Shown here: positions 25,990 to 43,076 of the stretch, in pieces
Layout: each line of letters opens with the position of its first letter
Numbering within the stretch: the stretch's first letter is position 1
Assembly: GCF_000009905.1 (NCBI RefSeq)
Contig: NC_006177.1
Coordinates: 1,674,001-1,738,000 of the forward strand
Length of the DNA stretch: 64,000 nt
Source of the DNA: Symbiobacterium thermophilum IAM 14863
GTDB taxonomy: Bacteria > Bacillota > Sulfobacillia > Symbiobacteriales > Symbiobacteriaceae
Direction of reading: 5' to 3'
Program-made: the position numbers and the translations under genes
The notes under the pieces: model-generated
The model's input: only the letters and a program-made list of their open reading frames with translations
Told to the model about the DNA's origin: nothing
The model's database searches: none

Positions 25990-26540
25990 CTGACGGCGAT
26001 TAGGGGAAGCCGCGCAAGGGTGACGCTTCGGCCTCTTTGACGGCTCCGCATACGATCCCGGTGCGACTCCTCTGTGCCGGGTCCGTCGGCTGTTCCGGGC
26101 GGGGCATGTCCGGGCCTGCGACGGGATGGCCGCAGAACCGAGCCTGCGGAGGAGGTGGTGCCGGCATCCGGGCACAGGGGTTCGCCGGCTCTGAGGATGG
26201 GTACGGGACTGGACCTGCTGCTCAGGATTTGAGACTGGCCGAGAGTTCGGCGGGACAAGCATTCCGCCGTCCGCCCCGCGACCGGGGCGGCGCCCCGGCG
26301 GTGTCAAGTTGTGCGCATTTCAGGCGCAGATGATCCGACACCGGTCTCCGGGACTGCGCATGTCCGGTTTGCGTTCACTGTCTGCGACTCGCCGGAGGCT
26401 CCGGCGCACCGGAGCTACAGGGTGCGGGCCGCGCTGCGCACGCCCGGTCGGAGGTCTCCATCCGTGAGCAGTTCAGGGCTGAACTGTCTCCGTCCGCGGC
26501 TGCCAACCTGTGTCCGGGAACGGACAGCCTGCACCAGCCG
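25990..26540. other. Intergenic region with one palindrome
   Basis: No convincing gene in about 600 bp. One good inverted repeat, CAGTTCA-GGGC-TGAACTG at 26469-26486, lies 57 bp upstream of the UbiD promoter and could be an operator or small hairpin. Composition is somewhat less GC-rich in third positions than neighbours and open frames look random. Confidence 0.4.
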
Positions 26541-28139: not shown

Positions 28140-29045
28140 GTGATCACCGTTCTGAAGCGGGTCAAGACGTTCGCCGAGTTGGTCAAGTGCGAGCACACCG
28201 TCCTGAACTTGCCCTTCGCGTACCTGGGGGCGTTCCTGGCGGCTGAAGGGTGGCCCACATGGCGGGAGCTGTTCTGGATCACGGTGGCCATGGTTGGGGC
28301 CCGGACCGCCGCCATGGGGATGAACCGCCTGTTCGACGAAGAGATCGACCGCAGGACGCCCCGCACCGCCACGCGCCATCTGCCGGCCGGGAAGATCCGC
28401 AGAGGCGAGGTGTGGGCCTACGTCGGCGTAGCGCTGGTGCTGCTGCTCCTGGCCGCGGTCAACCTGCACCCCCTGGCGGTCAAACTCTTCCCGTTGGCCG
28501 TACTCACGTTCACCATCTACCCGTTCACCAAACGGTTCACCTGGCTGTGTCATGTATGGCTGGGCCTCAGCGTGTCGTGGGGCGCCTTTGGCGCTTTCGT
28601 GGCCGTGCGCGGCTCCGTCGGGACCGAGATCCTGATTCTTGTCGGGCTCATCACGCTGTGGAACGCCGGGTTTGACATCATCTACGGCACCCAGGACCTC
28701 GAGGCGGACCGCATCAACGGGGTGCACTCCATCCCGGCCCGATTCGGCCTCGCTGCGGCGCTGCGGATCGCAAGGGCACTGCACCTGGGCGTGGTGCTGC
28801 TCGCGGGCGCGCTGGGCATCGCGGCCGGGCTGCTCCCGGCCTCACCCTGGCCGGTGACGGCGTGGCCGACCGCCTCGTGGCTGTATCTGGCGGCCTGGGT
28901 CCTGGTTGCCGGGTTGCTGCACTACGAGCACAGCATCATCTCGCCGGCGGACATGAGCCGGGTGGACACCGCCTTCTTCAACGTCAACGGATACCTCAGC
29001 GTGGCTTTCTCGGTGCTGACCATCGCTGCGCTGGTTCTCCGGTGA
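28140..29045 (+). CDS. UbiA-family prenyltransferase (MqnP-like)
   Basis: About 301 aa, integral membrane with eight or so hydrophobic helices. The two Asp-rich substrate motifs are present: MNRLFDEEIDRRTPRTATRH and DIIYGTQDLEADRINGVHSI. Adds a polyprenyl chain to an aromatic acid in quinone synthesis, upstream of the UbiD decarboxylation encoded by the preceding gene. GTG 28140 gives the usual family start (FAELVKCEHTVLNLPFAY close to the N-terminus); an in-frame TTG at 28086 would add 18 residues. The quinone likely serves the complex I encoded at 52-64 kb. Confidence 0.9.
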   Translation: MITVLKRVKTFAELVKCEHTVLNLPFAYLGAFLAAEGWPTWRELFWITVAMVGARTAAMGMNRLFDEEIDRRTPRTATRHLPAGKIRRGEVWAYVGVALVLLLLAAVNLHPLAVKLFPLAVLTFTIYPFTKRFTWLCHVWLGLSVSWGAFGAFVAVRGSVGTEILILVGLITLWNAGFDIIYGTQDLEADRINGVHSIPARFGLAAALRIARALHLGVVLLAGALGIAAGLLPASPWPVTAWPTASWLYLAAWVLVAGLLHYEHSIISPADMSRVDTAFFNVNGYLSVAFSVLTIAALVLR

Positions 29046-29278
29046 TGTTCGGGTCCTGACCGGCCGTGGACCCCGGCCCCGCAGGGGCTGCACGCGGATC
29101 GTGCCCCGGGCCTGGCCGGGGGCCGGCGAGTGGGGCGTGACCCTACCCGGACCAGGGAACCGGCGTGGAGCGCGTCGCGGGAGCGGCCCCTAGGCCGGCG
29201 GCGTGGAGCGATTGCCGGACCGTACCTGGGGCGGGAGAGTGGAGTGCGCCCCGGTGCAGACGCTACCCGGAGGCAGCA
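29046..29278. other. Spacer between convergent genes
   Basis: No gene seen; GC-rich, ends at a strong hairpin. Confidence 0.4.
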
Positions 29279-29310
29279 GCAAGTCCCCGTCGCGACCGAC
29301 GGGGACTTGC
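29279..29310. terminator. Perfect hairpin between convergent genes
   Basis: 14-bp perfect stem (29279-29292 with 29297-29310) and CGAC loop, 5 bp beyond the stop of the minus-strand S component. No T-run on either side; probably a bidirectional transcript end. Confidence 0.65.
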
Positions 29311-29314
29311 GCTG

Positions 29315-29824
29315 TCATTGCGCGGGCTGCTCGAACCAGCGGACGCCGGTCCGTCCTAGGGCAGCCACCAGTCCCAGGGCGATTCCCCCGTCCACGCAAT
29401 GGTGGATGGCCGTGCCCACCAGGGTGATCAGGGCCATGCTCAGGTTTCCGCCCAGGAGCCAGACCACCGCCGCCTCGACGACGGCGTGGACGGGCAGGGC
29501 GATGAGCATCACCAGCCAGAGGGGCATGCCCCGGTTCCAGGCGATGTTGCCCACCCAGGCGAACAGGGCGTGCGACAGGGCTCGTGCGCCGATGGGCGGG
29601 CCGACGAAAATGGTGAATCCCAGCGCTGAGCCGATGCCCACTCCGATGGCGGCAAAGGGCCCCATGAGCATCGCCAGCATGCTGGGCACATGTGACATCA
29701 AGGTGGCGGTGAAGAACGGCGGAATGGTGATCCGCAGGAAGGTGAACACGATGGGGATCATGAGGGCCAGGGCAGTGAGAATGCCTGTGGCAGCGAGATC
29801 CCCGATACCGATGCGGCGCCGCAC
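29315..29824 (-). CDS. ECF-type transporter substrate-binding (S) component
   Basis: 169-aa membrane protein with five to six hydrophobic helices; LAATGILTALALMIPIVF then PSMLAMLMGPFAAIGVGIG and FTIFVGPPIGARALSHA resemble S components of energy-coupling-factor vitamin transporters, most like the niacin-type (NiaX) group. No ATPase or T subunit is adjacent, so it would use a shared module. GTG 29824 is chosen because AAAGGGTGG then has proper spacing. Its promoter overlaps a perfect inverted repeat (29869-29885), suggesting repression by a vitamin-responsive regulator. Confidence 0.7.
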   Translation of the reverse strand: MRRRIGIGDLAATGILTALALMIPIVFTFLRITIPPFFTATLMSHVPSMLAMLMGPFAAIGVGIGSALGFTIFVGPPIGARALSHALFAWVGNIAWNRGMPLWLVMLIALPVHAVVEAAVVWLLGGNLSMALITLVGTAIHHCVDGGIALGLVAALGRTGVRWFEQPAQ

Positions 29825-29868
29825 GGGACCCACCCTTTCTGTACCGTGTCGACCGGGTTCTTATGGAC

Positions 29869-29901
29869 ATAGTATTTAGCACTATTAGGCGGTTGTGTCA
29901 A
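29869..29901 (-). promoter_or_regulatory. Promoter with overlapping operator for the S component
   Basis: On the minus strand TTGACA (29901-29896), 17 bp, TAAATA (29878-29873). The -10 lies exactly in the perfect inverted repeat ATAGT-N7-ACTAT (29869-29885). The related string CATAGTATCTA recurs at 29941-29951, before the M14 gene. Confidence 0.65.
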
Positions 29902-29979
29902 AGGGCCGGAGCGACGCTGGGACCCCCTTCCTGCCGGTCGCATAGTATCTAAGCGACACCGGAAAGGAGGGGCTCAGGC

Positions 29980-31323
29980 TTGTCCTACGTGGTCCGGCCC
30001 GGCGACACGCTCTGGGCCATCGCCCGCCGGCTGGGCGTCAGCCTGCCGCAGCTCATCGCTGCGAACCCGGGGCTGCAGAACCCGAACCTGATCTATGCCG
30101 GGCAGCGGCTGACGGTCCCGATGGCCGGCCAGTACGTCGTCCAGCAGGGCGATACCTTTTACCGCATCGCCCAGCGCTACCGCATCAGCGTCGAGGCGCT
30201 GGCGGCCGCGAACCCCCAGGTCGAGGATCCGAATGTCATCCGGCCGGGGATGGTTCTGTACATCCCCGCACGGCCTCCGCTTCAGTACATCGTCCAGCCG
30301 GGCGACACCCTCTGGCAGATCGCCCAGGCTTACGGCACCACGGTGGCGGCGTTGCTGCAGGCGAACCCCGGGGTCAACCCGTACCAGCTGCGCATCGGGC
30401 AGCCGCTCACCATTCCGGCGGCGTCCGACGGCGAGACCATCGTCGTGCCCAGGGAGGACTATGGGTACGACGAGATGATGGCCGACCTGGCGCGGTTGCA
30501 GCAGCGCTATCCCTTCATAGAAGTCCGTTCGATCGGCCGCAGCGTGCTGGGCCGGGACATCCCCGTCGTGCGACTCGGCACAGGGCCCAAGGAAGTCCAC
30601 TACAACGCGGCGATCCACGGGGAGGAGTGGATCACCGCTGTGCTGATGATGAAGTTCATCGAGGTATACGCCAGGGCCCGGGAGCGAGGCGAGCGCATCG
30701 GGAACTTTGACGTGCCCGCACTGTGGGAGCAGACCTCGCTCTTTGTGGTCCCCATGGTGAACCCGGACGGCGTGGAGATCTCCCAGGAGGGGGTCAGCCG
30801 GGACAATCCCTACTATGACCTGCTTCTGCAGGCCAACGGCGGGTCCACCAACTTCCGCACCTGGGCGGCCAACGCCCGGGGGGTTGACCTCAACAACCAG
30901 TTCCCGGCCGACTGGGAGAGGGAGGCGGCCCGGGGACCGCGGAGCCCTGCGCCTCGAAACTACTCGGGCACGGGCCCGTTGACCGAGCCCGAGGCCATCG
31001 CCCTGGCCGAGTTCACGCGCGCCCACGATTTCCGGCTGGTGATCGCCTGGCACAGCCAGGGCGAGGAGATCTACTGGGGCTACGAGGGGCTGGAGCCACC
31101 GGAGTCGGAGCAGATCACCAAGCTGTTCGTGGACATCTCGGGCTACCGGCCCGTCCGCTACCTGCAGAGCTGGGCCGGGTACAAGGACTGGTTCATCCAG
31201 GACTGGCGGCGCCCAGGCTTCACCCTTGAGGTGGGGCGCGGGGTGAACCCGCTGCCGATGAGCCAGTTCTGGCCGATCTGGAGCCGTACCATCGGCGTGA
31301 TGTTGGCAGGGCTGGCGGTATGA
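29980..31323 (+). CDS. LysM-M14 peptidoglycan endopeptidase
   Basis: 447 aa. Three LysM domains (about 2-45, 50-95, 101-145), each with PGDT or QGDT and an NP turn, then an M14 zinc carboxypeptidase domain: zinc ligands in AAIHGEEWITAV, substrate Arg/Asn around ARGVDLNNQFPADW, third zinc ligand in IAWHSQGEEIYWG, catalytic Glu in FTLEVGRG. This is the architecture of gamma-D-glutamyl-L-diamino acid endopeptidase I from sporulating bacilli, which cuts spore or cell-wall peptides. No signal peptide, as in that enzyme, so action in the mother cell or after lysis is likely. TTG start with AAAGGAGGGG. Confidence 0.92.
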   Translation: MSYVVRPGDTLWAIARRLGVSLPQLIAANPGLQNPNLIYAGQRLTVPMAGQYVVQQGDTFYRIAQRYRISVEALAAANPQVEDPNVIRPGMVLYIPARPPLQYIVQPGDTLWQIAQAYGTTVAALLQANPGVNPYQLRIGQPLTIPAASDGETIVVPREDYGYDEMMADLARLQQRYPFIEVRSIGRSVLGRDIPVVRLGTGPKEVHYNAAIHGEEWITAVLMMKFIEVYARARERGERIGNFDVPALWEQTSLFVVPMVNPDGVEISQEGVSRDNPYYDLLLQANGGSTNFRTWAANARGVDLNNQFPADWEREAARGPRSPAPRNYSGTGPLTEPEAIALAEFTRAHDFRLVIAWHSQGEEIYWGYEGLEPPESEQITKLFVDISGYRPVRYLQSWAGYKDWFIQDWRRPGFTLEVGRGVNPLPMSQFWPIWSRTIGVMLAGLAV

Positions 31324-31400
31324 TCGCCGGCCCTGCGGCGTTGTGGGTGCCTGGAGCGACGCCGGTGCGTGGGTCCACCTGTCCTCACTCGTGGTGGTCC

Positions 31401-31886
31401 GGGGTGGGGCGGAGGTTCTGCCCACGGGCTGAGACTCGGCCGGAGGTGCATGGGCGAGGGGCTGCGTGGTGCAGCCGGCGTGGTGCCTAGCTTTGCGGCG
31501 CTCTCAAACCGTGGGCGGTTCAGGATTGCAAAGTTTGGACTGCACGGGAGGGATAGCGATGCCAGGGCCCGCACCGGGGCCGCGGGGTGGGACGGAGGTT
31601 CTGCCCACGGAATGAGACTTGCCAGGAGCTGCACGGGAGAGGGGACGCGTGGCGCAGCCGGCGTGGTGCCTAGCTTTGCGGCGCTCTCAAACCGTGGGCG
31701 CTTCAGGATTGCAAAGTTTGGACTGCACGGGAAGGGTAGGAACGCCCGGGCCCGCGCGGGGGGCGCGGGGTGGGGCGGAGGTTCTGCCCACGGGCTGAGA
31801 CTGGCGGGAGGCGCGTGGGCGAGGGGCTGCGTGGCGCAGCCGGCGTGGTGCCTAGCTTTGCGGCGCTCTCAAACCGTGGGCGGTTG
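31401..31886. repeat. 183-bp direct tandem repeat, about 2.7 copies
   Basis: Units begin at 31401, 31584 and 31767 (each GGGGTGGG followed by CGGAGGTTCTGCCCACGG or close), giving an exact 183-bp period; the third unit breaks off near 31886. The stretch GTGCCTAGCTTTGCGGCGCT and the following CTCAAACCGTGGGCG are identical in all copies. The period is a multiple of three and a plus-strand frame (from GTG 31369) crosses units 1-2, but an indel breaks it in unit 3, so coding is doubtful. Confidence 0.85.
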
Positions 31887-31971
31887 GTCCGTAGCGCACG
31901 GACCACCGGCTCTCCCAGACTGCGGGATGTTGTGGAGTCCAGGACCGGGTCAGCGTAGGCGCCAACAAGAT

Positions 31972-32006
31972 CCGCCCTCCCCCGGTTGCGGGCCGGGGGA
32001 GGGCGG
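31972..32006. terminator. Hairpin between repeat array and minus-strand genes
   Basis: Perfect 14-bp stem (31972-31985 with 31993-32006), seven-base loop, 50 bp beyond the stop of the minus-strand hydrolase. Confidence 0.6.
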
Positions 32007-32055
32007 CGCACAAATTCGGGTTGCCAGGATCACACAACAGGTGGGAGAAGGCTGA

Positions 32056-32841
32056 TTATCCCGGTCGGGTGAGCGAGTCCATGTACCAGTACACGGCCTC
32101 GGCGATGCGGGCGATGGCTTCCTCGGCCTGCGCCTCCGTCATCCCCTTGGTGAACACCGAGATGGCGAAAGAGCGGTCCGGGGCATAGACCAGTCCGACG
32201 TCGTGGAACTCGTCGTCCCGGCTGCCGATCTTGGTGGCCACCACCGCCGATTCCGGAAGATATCGCGGGATGCGCCTGCGGAAGACCGCCTCTTCCATCC
32301 ACCGGAGCAGCATGCGGGTCGACGCCGGCGAGAGGCCGGACCGGCCGGAGTCCAGGGCGATCAGCACCTGATTCATGCCGTAGGGGGTGACCGGGGTCTC
32401 CAGCGGGTCGTACGCCGGGGCCACGCCCAGGGACAGCATGTAATTGCGGATGGTCCCGCTGCCGATGAACCGCTCCAGCATGTTGCGGGCGATGTTGTCC
32501 GAGACCGTGATCGTGAGCTCCAGCAGCCGTCGGACGGAGACCTCGTCTCCGGGCTGGATCGTGGCCTGCAGGATGCCGGTCCCCGCCTGGTAGTCCTCGG
32601 GCTGGTAGGCGATGGTCTGGTCCAGGCTGATCCGCCGCCGGTCAGCCAGCCAGAGGACGGCCATGGCGATGGGCACCTTGATGGTGCTCGCAGCGTAGAA
32701 CTCCGCCATCGGGTTGAGGCCGGCCGAGCGGCCCGTCGCCAGGTCGGTCACGTAGACGCCGATGGTGCCGGGCAGGTCGCTGACGACCCTCTCCAGGATG
32801 GCCGTCAGGTCCTCCGGCCGGAACGGTCTGAGTCTCGGCAT
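32056..32841 (-). CDS. Serine hydrolase of the class A beta-lactamase family
   Basis: 261 aa. Active-site Ser-x-x-Lys in YAASTIKVPIAMA, SDN loop in TITVSDNIARNML, and a KTG-like K-I-G in VVATKIGSRDDE. The Omega-loop Glu of true class A enzymes (ExxxN) is replaced by the PLETPVTPYG region, which keeps a Glu. No signal peptide is visible. It could be a peptidase or a beta-lactamase-like protein; activity on antibiotics is not implied. ATG 32841 gives GGAGGG a nine-base spacing, whereas ATG 32850 would abut it. Confidence 0.85.
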   Translation of the reverse strand: MPRLRPFRPEDLTAILERVVSDLPGTIGVYVTDLATGRSAGLNPMAEFYAASTIKVPIAMAVLWLADRRRISLDQTIAYQPEDYQAGTGILQATIQPGDEVSVRRLLELTITVSDNIARNMLERFIGSGTIRNYMLSLGVAPAYDPLETPVTPYGMNQVLIALDSGRSGLSPASTRMLLRWMEEAVFRRRIPRYLPESAVVATKIGSRDDEFHDVGLVYAPDRSFAISVFTKGMTEAQAEEAIARIAEAVYWYMDSLTRPG

Positions 32842-32925
32842 GCGCTCCATCCCTCCGTCCGCCAGGTCGCGTCACAGCAGTATACGCCGGCGGGGCGGGA
32901 CGATGGCGGCTACTGGATGGTGAAG

Positions 32926-33960
32926 TCAGACTCGTCGGTGATCAGGTGCACCCAGGTGAGCCCGGGCGCCAGGAGGGGGCAGCTGGCCGCCTTCCGGCGG
33001 GTAGAGGACGAATCCGCCGGGCTCCAGCCGCCACGTGCCCTCGTACCGGTGGCCCGCCACCAGCACGGTCGCCGGGCCCCCGTCCCACAGGTAGAGGGTC
33101 CAGCCGAGGTCGACCCCACGGTTGACGCCGCCCACCCCCAGGAAGAGCAGGTTGACCGCCGTGATGGGCCGGCCTTCCTCGTCGGTGTGCAGGACGCCGT
33201 CGGTGTAGCGCACGTAGCGCCCGTCCTCCCAGACCCAGCGGGCCTCGTTGAGCCGGTGCCAGAAGACGTCCACGGCCGTGTGATCACCGACCGTGGGTAC
33301 CGCGGCGGACCGCGCCGTGGTCGGGACGGAGGTCATGTCGATGCCGCGGTCGACGATCGCCTGCCCCAGCAGATCGGTGCTGGTGTAGAGGTTGTGCGGC
33401 GGCTCACGGTCCCCGGTGCGGTAGAAGTAACCCCCGGCGGTGTAGATCTCGTCGAGGTTGCGCGGCCCCCACGCCGCCCGGAGCATGGCCAGGGCCTCGG
33501 CGCTGCCGCCGGAGTGGGCGAAGGGGGTGTTGTAGGCGTCAGCCATGTCGACGAACCCCTGGCGGGCGCTGCGCACCGGCCCGATTTTGTCGGCGGGCTT
33601 GGTCCAGAAGAGCGTGAAGAAGCGGGTGATCTCGGCCTCGGTCAACGTCTCCACCACGAGGTCCGCCTGGTTCACCCCGGCCTGCGGGCGGGCGCCGGGC
33701 GAGTTCTCCACCACGACGGAGACCGGCCCGCCCCAGAGCGTGGCAGCGGAGGGCGCCAGCAGGTAGACCGGATCCGTCGTCAGCGTCGGTTCCACCGGCT
33801 CCGGCTCGGGTTCGGGCACGTGCACGGACTCGGAGACCGGGGGCTTTTCCGTGCTTTGACCGGGTGTCTCCGGTGTCGTCGGCTCCGTGGGAGTCGCGGT
33901 TCGGGTCCCGCATCCGGCCAGCAGCAGCACGATCAGGACGATGGGCAGGTAGCGTCTCAT
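32926..33960 (-). CDS. DUF3048 lipoprotein (YerB family), probable C-terminal frameshift
   Basis: 344 aa as read. Lipobox LLLAGCG, then a Pro/Glu/Thr linker (about 22-60), then the two DUF3048 lobes: VVVENSPGARPQAGVNQADL, KIGPVRSARQGFVDMADAY, DFWHRL-type segment VDVFWHRLNEARWVW, YLWDGGPATVLVAGHRYEGT. The family normally ends with an APGKTWVQ-like segment; this is found in the next frame (LLAPGLTWVHLITDESDFT), ending at 32910. Removing one C of the CCCCC run (GGGGG at 32975-32979 on the plus strand) would restore it. Function of the family is unknown. ATG 33960 is used; TTG 33963 directly precedes it. Confidence 0.85.
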   Translation of the reverse strand: MRRYLPIVLIVLLLAGCGTRTATPTEPTTPETPGQSTEKPPVSESVHVPEPEPEPVEPTLTTDPVYLLAPSAATLWGGPVSVVVENSPGARPQAGVNQADLVVETLTEAEITRFFTLFWTKPADKIGPVRSARQGFVDMADAYNTPFAHSGGSAEALAMLRAAWGPRNLDEIYTAGGYFYRTGDREPPHNLYTSTDLLGQAIVDRGIDMTSVPTTARSAAVPTVGDHTAVDVFWHRLNEARWVWEDGRYVRYTDGVLHTDEEGRPITAVNLLFLGVGGVNRGVDLGWTLYLWDGGPATVLVAGHRYEGTWRLEPGGFVLYPPEGGQLPPPGARAHLGAPDHRRV

Positions 33961-33962
33961 CA

Positions 33963-33982
33963 AATCACCCCGAGGGGTGATT
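33963..33982. promoter_or_regulatory. Inverted repeat covering the ribosome-binding site of the DUF3048 gene
   Basis: AATCACCCC-GA-GGGGTGATT, nine-base arms. On the minus strand the downstream arm GGGGTGATT is the ribosome-binding site, so pairing would hide it. Could also be a protein-binding palindrome. Confidence 0.4.
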
Positions 33983-34036
33983 CAAGGCAGAATGCTCATT
34001 CCCCTGCGGGTAGTCGCTGGCATTGACAGTTCAGAC

Positions 34037-42240: not shown

Positions 42241-42371
42241 AGTGCCGGGGAGATTGCCCCGTACGGGGCCGCATACCCCGGCATCCAGGAGCTGTGTCAG
42301 CATAGGGGCAGGACCGAGCCGGGGCGGACAGCCGATCGTTCGGGAGGGCTTCGTCGGGGTGCCGCACCCGC

Positions 42372-42935
42372 GTTCCGGGCTGGCTTCGTGGCGGCGCGGC
42401 ACCCGCGTTCCGGGCTGGCTTCGTCGGGGGTGCCGCGCCCGGATGTCGGGTGGGCTGCGCCGGGGCGCGGTACCCGCATTCCGGGTTGGCTTCGTCCAGG
42501 CGCTAGCACCCGCATTCCGGGTTGGTTTCGTCCGGTCGCCAGCGCCCGCGTTCCGGGTTGACTTCGCCCAGGCGCTAGCACCCACATTCCGGGTTGGTTT
42601 CGTCCGGTCGCCAGCGCCCGCGTTCCGGGTTGACTTCGTCCAGGCGCTGGACCCGCGTTCCGGGTTGACTTCGCCCAGGCGCTAGCACCCACATTCCGGG
42701 TTGGCTTCGTCCAGGCGCTAGCACCCGCATTCCGGGTTGGCTTCGCCCAGGCGCTAGCACCCACATTCCGGGTTGGCTTCGCCCAGGCGCTAGCACCCGC
42801 ATTCCGGGTTGGCTTCGTCCGGTCGCCAGCACCCGCATTCCGGGGTGGCTTCGTCCAGGCGCTAGCACCCACATTCCGGGTTGACCTCGCCCAGGCGCTG
42901 GACCCACGTTCAGGGTTAACTTCGTCCGGGCTCTG
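42372..42935. repeat. 36-bp tandem repeat (minisatellite), about 16 units
   Basis: Units of the type TTCCGGGTTGGCTTCGCCCA followed by GGCGCTAGCACCCRCA. Two main variants alternate: CAGGCGCTAGCACCC and CGGTCGCCAGCRCCC. Most units are 36 bp; two with CGCTGGACCC are shorter by one base and shift any reading frame. Units are contiguous, without spacers. The outer units (42372-42470, 42900-42935) are more degenerate. The array fills most of the 836-bp gap before the carboxyltransferase gene. Confidence 0.9.
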
Positions 42936-43076
42936 CACCCGGGTCTCGGATGAGCTGGGGCGCTGCGCCCGCTCGGCGGCGGCGATGAGGCCGGGCGCGA
43001 CACAGGGGGTTGGCAGGGCTTCGGCCGGGCAGCGTTCCGCTGGGGAGAGGAGAATCGGCAGAGGGGGGAGAGGGCG

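Follow-up and report, generated by a model that had tools for sequence, protein, structure and literature searches.

Introduction

REPINs are inverted doublets of REP sequences with a conserved spacing that form a hairpin and also occur in tandem clusters together with their flanks, as described in the relevant passages of Bertels and Rainey (2011, PMC3116915), which count 430 REP doublets in SBW25 and treat REPINs as thought to depend on RAYT enzymes. REP repeats are known mainly from Proteobacteria according to Di Nocera et al. (2013, PMC3733652), in whose main text the strings 'Firmicutes', 'Symbiobacterium' and 'Clostridi' do not occur, and a search of one open library for literature on repetitive extragenic palindromic repeats in Symbiobacterium found none.

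The locus considered here is a tandem array in a 64-kb stretch of the Symbiobacterium thermophilum chromosome (hereafter the window). Comparison of related sequences makes it somewhat probable that this array has expanded locally from a member of a RAYT-less, REPIN-like family of non-coding hairpins, a family that is specific to the genus, low in copy number and only rarely moved.

Genomes and models

The complete host genome (G000; 3,566,135 bp, one contig) was compared with two drafts from the same genus, G001 and G002, the latter 88% complete; draft genomes may hide arrays at contig ends. Two covariance models were used. R1 was built from 18 of the 23 elements of G001 and G002 with window sequence excluded, the omissions being three elements from already represented arrays, of which one nearly duplicates another element, and two whose left arms are poor. 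R2 was built on alignment A2, which holds 24 of 29 elements from all three genomes with the window copies entered as minus strand and leaves out five near duplicates or poorly formed elements. The R1 survey covered 61 genomes and scored the best 64 candidates per genome under stricter filters, the R2 survey scored the best 150, and all copy counts given below are lower bounds since only these best candidates were scored.

The tandem array

TRF placed a tandem array at 31400-31885 with a period of 183, 2.7 copies and 88% matches, and a repeat search of the window found the units 31400-31582 and 31583-31765 to be 88% alike, followed by a third, partial copy, so that the repeat reported by the first-pass annotation is real. 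Its position after an M14 peptidase gene was likewise borne out by the LysM and Peptidase_M14 domains that Pfam assigned to that gene. The features of the locus are as follows.

29980..31323, plus strand: flanking gene with three LysM stretches and Peptidase_M14 (Pfam), after which the array comes
31400..31886, no strand assigned: tandem array, period 183, 2.7 units (TRF and repeat search)
31415..31521, no strand assigned: hairpin element copy 1, 107 nt, arms at about 31415-31434 and 31502-31521 (R1, R2, RNA fold)
31471..31517 (unit 1 coordinates), no strand assigned: 47-nt stretch common to the three copies (alignment of copies)
31522..31597, no strand assigned: spacer 1, 76 nt, the gap between elements; DNA fold z 0.2, like shuffles
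31598..31704, no strand assigned: hairpin element copy 2, 107 nt (R1, RNA fold)
31705..31780, no strand assigned: spacer 2, 76 nt, homologous to spacer 1 (repeat search); DNA fold z -4.4 against shuffles
31781..31886, no strand assigned: hairpin element copy 3, 106 nt, whose end is the array end (R1, RNA fold)
31972..32006, minus strand: terminator-like stem of 14 pairs outside the array (stem prediction)
32056..32850, minus strand: convergent flanking gene for a Beta-lactamase2-like serine hydrolase (Pfam PF13354), before which the array comes

The period had been called exact, which holds for the first step of 183; the core of the third unit comes after 182, one base being missing inside that unit, and the third copy ends with the hairpin element, short of a full unit. 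The fully kept core inside otherwise variable units was recovered as a run of 47 nt invariant in all three copies, GCAGCCGG...GTGGGCG, which starts at 31471 in unit 1; with 16 of the 122 aligned columns variable, the permutation p for this run is 0.004. For a 20-mer core, 3 occurrences were counted in the window where chance predicts 0.02. The core named by the first-pass annotation is indeed conserved but makes up only one half of a hairpin of about 106 nt, and the biological unit is the inverted-repeat element of 106-107 nt with its 76-nt spacers rather than the 183-mer.

Two other descriptions of the array were discarded: a 228-codon frame over it (31369-32055, plus strand) was not taken as a gene as Pfam gave no match, and a CRISPR array was ruled out by the homology of both spacers and the repeat length of 107 nt. 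At the array ends, GGTGGTCCG was noticed by eye at 31393-31401 and its reverse complement at 31899-31907. Rfam covariance models gave nothing up to E 1 in window positions 29000-34000, and over nine loci a single match at E 0.46, located outside the element.

Distribution of the family

R1 recognised the three units in the window, with better-strand E values of 2e-8, 5e-7 and 2e-5; the runner-up in the 64 kb reached only E 0.88. In the host genome it found at least 4 places at E<0.01 on two sites, namely the window array and a further copy at 1,758,352 (the livF site). At the same threshold, G001 holds at least 22 places at 6 sites and G002 at least 5 places on three contigs, taken as two sites since the ubiD-side array stands at the end of C151 as well as of C95; the local GC skew of C95, a 4.9-kb contig, disagrees with that of C151, which is taken to carry the other end of this array.

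The arms of the element are about 20 nt long and inverted, 84-87 nt from start to start, and the loop they enclose measures about 63-71 nt, as judged from the delimited copies; model matches are 104-109 nt long, partial ones aside. Allowing at most 2 mismatches, the motif TCTCAAACCGTSGGMGGTTC has 19 matches in G001 and a single one in G002, while 38 further genomes lack it; its backwards control matched once over the 41 genomes. In G001 it alternates with its inverted partner at a start-to-start distance of 84, or 85-87 in four copies, and the arm-to-arm offsets in the window (85, 85 and 84) are as in the relatives' copies, two offsets of G002 and three of contig C34 being visual assignments or readings.

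The orientation of the window copies depends on the model, the element being nearly symmetric and scored by R1 on both strands. R1 prefers the plus strand for copy 1 (38.6 bits, against 34.8 on minus) and copy 3 (31.8 bits, E 2.1e-5, against 22.1) and the minus strand for copy 2 (44.6 bits, E 2e-8, against 33.6). R2 prefers the minus strand for all three by 23-38 bits (copy 1: 75.3 against 47.6 on plus), a preference that is circular because the training alignment A2 already contained these copies in minus orientation, assigned by visual inspection of the outer flanks.

Outside the genus, R1 gave nothing credible in 58 genomes, five of which had one weak match each (E 0.0066 to 0.99), and R2 gave no match at E<=1 in five such genomes. 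The match at E 0.0066, in G004, was rejected: it lies by eye inside an apparent solute-binding protein gene and was absent with R2. BLAST of the 486-base array against 101 genomes returned matches at E<=1 in at least 88 of them (best six candidates per genome), and those inspected, the array itself aside, were short GC-rich pieces, with the G001 rows opening onto the family. A contig scan yielded 46 stretches with one match each in unrelated phyla, read as chance since about 120 are expected from 16 fixed bases; as records close to the host genome may be missing from the scanned set, this result bears on sequences outside the genus. Viral contigs had no match to an exact 21-mer with one ambiguous base, plasmids none to the window array, and phages none to a G001 stretch of two units' worth.

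Within the complete host genome the 183-bp unit was found only at the window array (best 40 of 53 candidates), and so was the core with at most 3 mismatches. The first-pass annotation had allowed for a core that occurs nowhere else; the core in its near-exact form is indeed confined to this array, but the family to which it belongs is present elsewhere in the host genome and in the genus. Taken together, the matches look like a genus-specific, intergenic family that stands mostly in tandem arrays among related bacteria of the same genus, and its novelty holds relative to the searches made (Rfam, viral, plasmid, phage, and literature in one open library).

Several other repeats were observed in these genomes. 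A short form of 56 nt occurs in G002 at L100 1501-1556 and also near 1701 and 1901, with an apparent repeat of about 200 bp. The host genome contains a 75-bp, palindrome-containing tandem repeat of 8.7 copies, 94% alike, at about 2029367-2030013 of G000:C1 (L049 3368-4014); this array (2,029,368) has a 17-base piece in common with the edge of the window element and no R1 match. In the window, a 36-bp tandem repeat of about 16 copies lies at 42364-42941, where the collinear G001 sequence is about 550 bp shorter. Further tandem arrays, with periods of about 40, 51, 63 and 78 bp, stand in the inspected stretches of G001 contig C6.

L047 2621-2934, 5964-6102 and 7129-7503, no strand assigned: other C6 tandem arrays
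L048 72-543, no strand assigned: other C6 tandem array

Occupied and empty sites

Contig C6 of G001 is collinear with the window in inverted orientation. The window array site is empty in both relatives, with 129 bp between the aligned flanks in G001 and 14 bp in G002, so the relatives carry no unit at all where a single one had been envisaged. In G004 the two flanking genes sit on separate contigs, and this genome is hence uninformative. Conversely, opposite the G001 array at C6:21955-23106 the window has some 158 bp without a model match, where a short piece resembles by eye the left end of the element, and the C36 array of G001 corresponds to 239 bp in G000 without a model match.

Two sites are occupied in more than one species. 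Downstream of livF, one unit in G000 and two in G002 occupy the same collinear gap; the G000 copy has its highest identity, 62%, to the G002 livF copies, and in the tree the two livF sites do not group together. Upstream of ubiD, G001 carries four units and G002 three or more, and the same intergenic region of the window holds two weak matches.

26215..26321, plus strand: possible decayed element upstream of ubiD, at the G001/G002 array site; R1 E 0.88, R2 E 0.011 (298 kb) and 0.128 (whole genome)
26367..26474, minus strand: second possible decayed element in the same ubiD intergenic region; R2 E 0.03 (298 kb) and 0.357 (whole genome)

Among the places scored with R2 these two are the next best in the genome after the E<0.01 set, which is no more than suggestive of decayed elements. 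In the tree the elements mostly group by site within species, one G001 ubiD-site copy falling outside its group, as is expected if recombination homogenises arrays.

The gene neighbours at five sites are convergent, divergent or co-directional, so the placement of the element with respect to genes varies. Neither a target duplication nor the precise limits of an insertion could be made out, the flanks of the empty sites being by eye too diverged to fix boundaries, and similarity reaches about 11 nt beyond one arm only (by eye). A history of loss alone from an older and wider set of sites may also account for the pattern, and loss is conceivable at the place of the C6:22k array because of the left-end-like piece seen there by eye.

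Pairing and folding of the hairpin

In A2, standard pairing accounts for 83.3% of the arm cells, compared with 80.4% after shuffling (0 of 500 as high), cells changed on both sides number 17 against 9.6 expected (10 of 500 shuffles), and the covariation score is 0.166 against 0.129 (2 of 500); slid partners reach at most 47% paired. The clearest compensating column is 9/103, with G-C in 15 and C-G in 9; column 10/102 has A-U in 15 and G-U in 9. On other measures no excess over shuffles appeared, neither for pairs with double changes (233/500) and further pair types (155/500) in A2 nor for any measure in A1, the alignment of G001 and G002 alone (54/500 or more); RNAalifold predicted zero pairs on A2.

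As RNA, copies 1, 2 and 3 fold with z of -3.2, -1.4 and -3.0 on the plus strand and -4.2, -2.5 and -3.2 on the minus strand. The folding proposed earlier for the units thus beats shuffles for most of them and is weak for unit 2 on plus. Among ten single foldings most beat shuffles, with z as low as -5.4, the host livF copy reaching only -0.6. Considering that related sequences may exceed shuffles without structure, pairing and folding constitute moderate evidence that the arms have been kept paired through compensating changes between species. Selection on the core, as originally proposed, is plausible on this cross-species pairing; the identity within the array is a weak argument for it because array copies are homogenised, and pairing maintained between species would be the firmer sign of selection.

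A conserved structured RNA, or an mRNA 3'-end stabiliser or terminator hairpin, transcribed from the arrays and acting as RNA, would fit the G-U wobbles that keep the arms paired in column 10/102, the folding of most copies below shuffles and the location of the window array between convergent genes. This explanation is unlikely, however, in view of the varying gene orientation over the five sites, the window array without a promoter of the sigma-70-like type (the type searched for), the element without an Rfam match and its near symmetry, by which both strands score.

Position on the chromosome

Of the nine site positions, six are packed into an 80-kb region at 1.691-1.769 Mb of the G000 chromosome, which 0 of 200,000 uniform placements reproduced. 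In this simulation the relatives' positions were carried over by collinearity, one of the nine was poorly placed and the window site was itself the start of the search. The six-site cluster lies about 107-185 kb before the inferred terminus: the GC skew flips at about 1.874 Mb, and a dif-like sequence (22/28 match) at 1,875,686 marks the probable replication terminus. The clustering would fit a terminus-proximal DNA site that serves chromosome organisation or replication, similar in effect to matS, Ter or KOPS, and is kept in arrays in one region. It is nevertheless quite unlikely that the element is such a site, given that the clustered sites are all on one side of the inferred dif, that one G001 site maps near 3.40 Mb, by which a terminus-only location is not upheld, and that the sites differ between species.

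Orientation to the fork is not significantly biased either, the C-rich strand being used in 6 of 7 placed sites with the window's excluded, or in 7 of 8 (p 0.07) if the window copies are minus, an orientation that R1 leaves unsettled. The site on G002 contig C141, a short form with E 0.038 (R1) and 0.016 (R2), was treated as unplaced because only one 462-bp match of 69% puts it near 3.11 Mb and the local GC skew disagrees. A strand p of 0.039 (8/9) was discarded since it included this C141 site, which is also one of the nine simulated positions.

Transposon relics and chance duplication

MITEs are short, non-coding and have inverted ends. The window family is like them in these respects and in its presence or absence between species at intergenic sites, with inverted ends of about 20 bp and a small, near-fixed size. 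That the copies are remnants of an ordinary MITE or insertion sequence bounded by terminal inverted repeats, whose DDE transposase is now lost, is still very unlikely: the arm pattern (at most 3 mismatches) matches only the three units in the complete genome, and thus no autonomous, full-length partner with these ends was found, ends as diverged as those of the livF copy escaping such a pattern. Moreover, the similarity beyond the arms is one-sided (by eye), and no target duplication was identified between the diverged flanks of the empty sites.

An ordinary minisatellite, that is, chance tandem duplication of intergenic DNA with no special unit, is the least probable explanation and hardly credible, for although copies 1 and 2 differ about equally in element (12 of 107 nt) and spacer (10 of 76 nt; Fisher p 0.82) and the host genome has further tandem arrays, it is the element and not the spacer that recurs elsewhere, both at further sites and in further species, while its length stays nearly fixed and its arms stay paired, and the R1 result had already disfavoured this reading.

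Comparison with REP and REPIN elements

The REPIN-like family remains the preferred reading. What is seen is one sequence family of near-fixed length with cross-species pairing, intergenic location, arrays in the same orientation, and presence or absence between species. For such a family, the element would occasionally be copied into another intergenic site; most probably some enzyme would act in trans on its single-stranded hairpin form. Two adjacent copies would then recombine or slip, multiplying element and spacer together (183 bp here), and the same process would homogenise each array. A cellular role, such as RNA end protection or protein binding, would be secondary if there is any. A narrower proposal, a mobile hairpin free of RAYT and Y1 that moves mainly over short distances in the region before the replication terminus, perhaps by way of single-stranded fork DNA and some other enzyme, is possible though doubtful.

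If the family is REPIN-like and works without RAYT, the occupied and apparently empty sites of sister species would provide a test of repeat movement and of regional gathering. Should it turn out to be a protein-binding site or a MITE in decay, a repeat family without an Rfam match would still have been described.

The RAYT-type transposase domain Y1_Tnp (PF01797) was found in none of the three genus genomes, while the control was positive in 5 of 14 named genomes including E. coli. The known REPIN mover is thus absent from the genus as searched, and the element is said to work like a REPIN rather than filed as one. The earlier statement that the repeat belongs to no recognised insertion sequence or REP type agrees with the Rfam result but understates the likeness, the element being nearer to REP and REPIN than claimed while lacking their usual transposase.

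The likeness to REPINs, as the passages of Bertels and Rainey (2011, PMC3116915) portray them, lies in inverted arms at conserved spacing, the hairpin, the intergenic location and the tandem flank-REPIN-flank arrangement. The differences are that no RAYT was found in the genus, that copies are few (at least 4 in G000 and at least 22 in G001), and that the arms can be read only unclearly as REPs carrying an unpaired GTAG tag on the outside. By eye, the window arm can be read as AACCG-TGGG-CGGTT, a pattern that is weaker in the relatives, and only some of the G001 copies have a GTAG immediately inward of the left arm. The CGTC-tagged REPs, which Di Nocera et al. (2013, PMC3733652) present as palindromic, mostly head-to-head dimers without a dedicated transposase, offer a further parallel; their CGTC is terminal and unpaired, whereas here CGTC lies inside the arm in G001 and is replaced by CGTG in the window and in G002.
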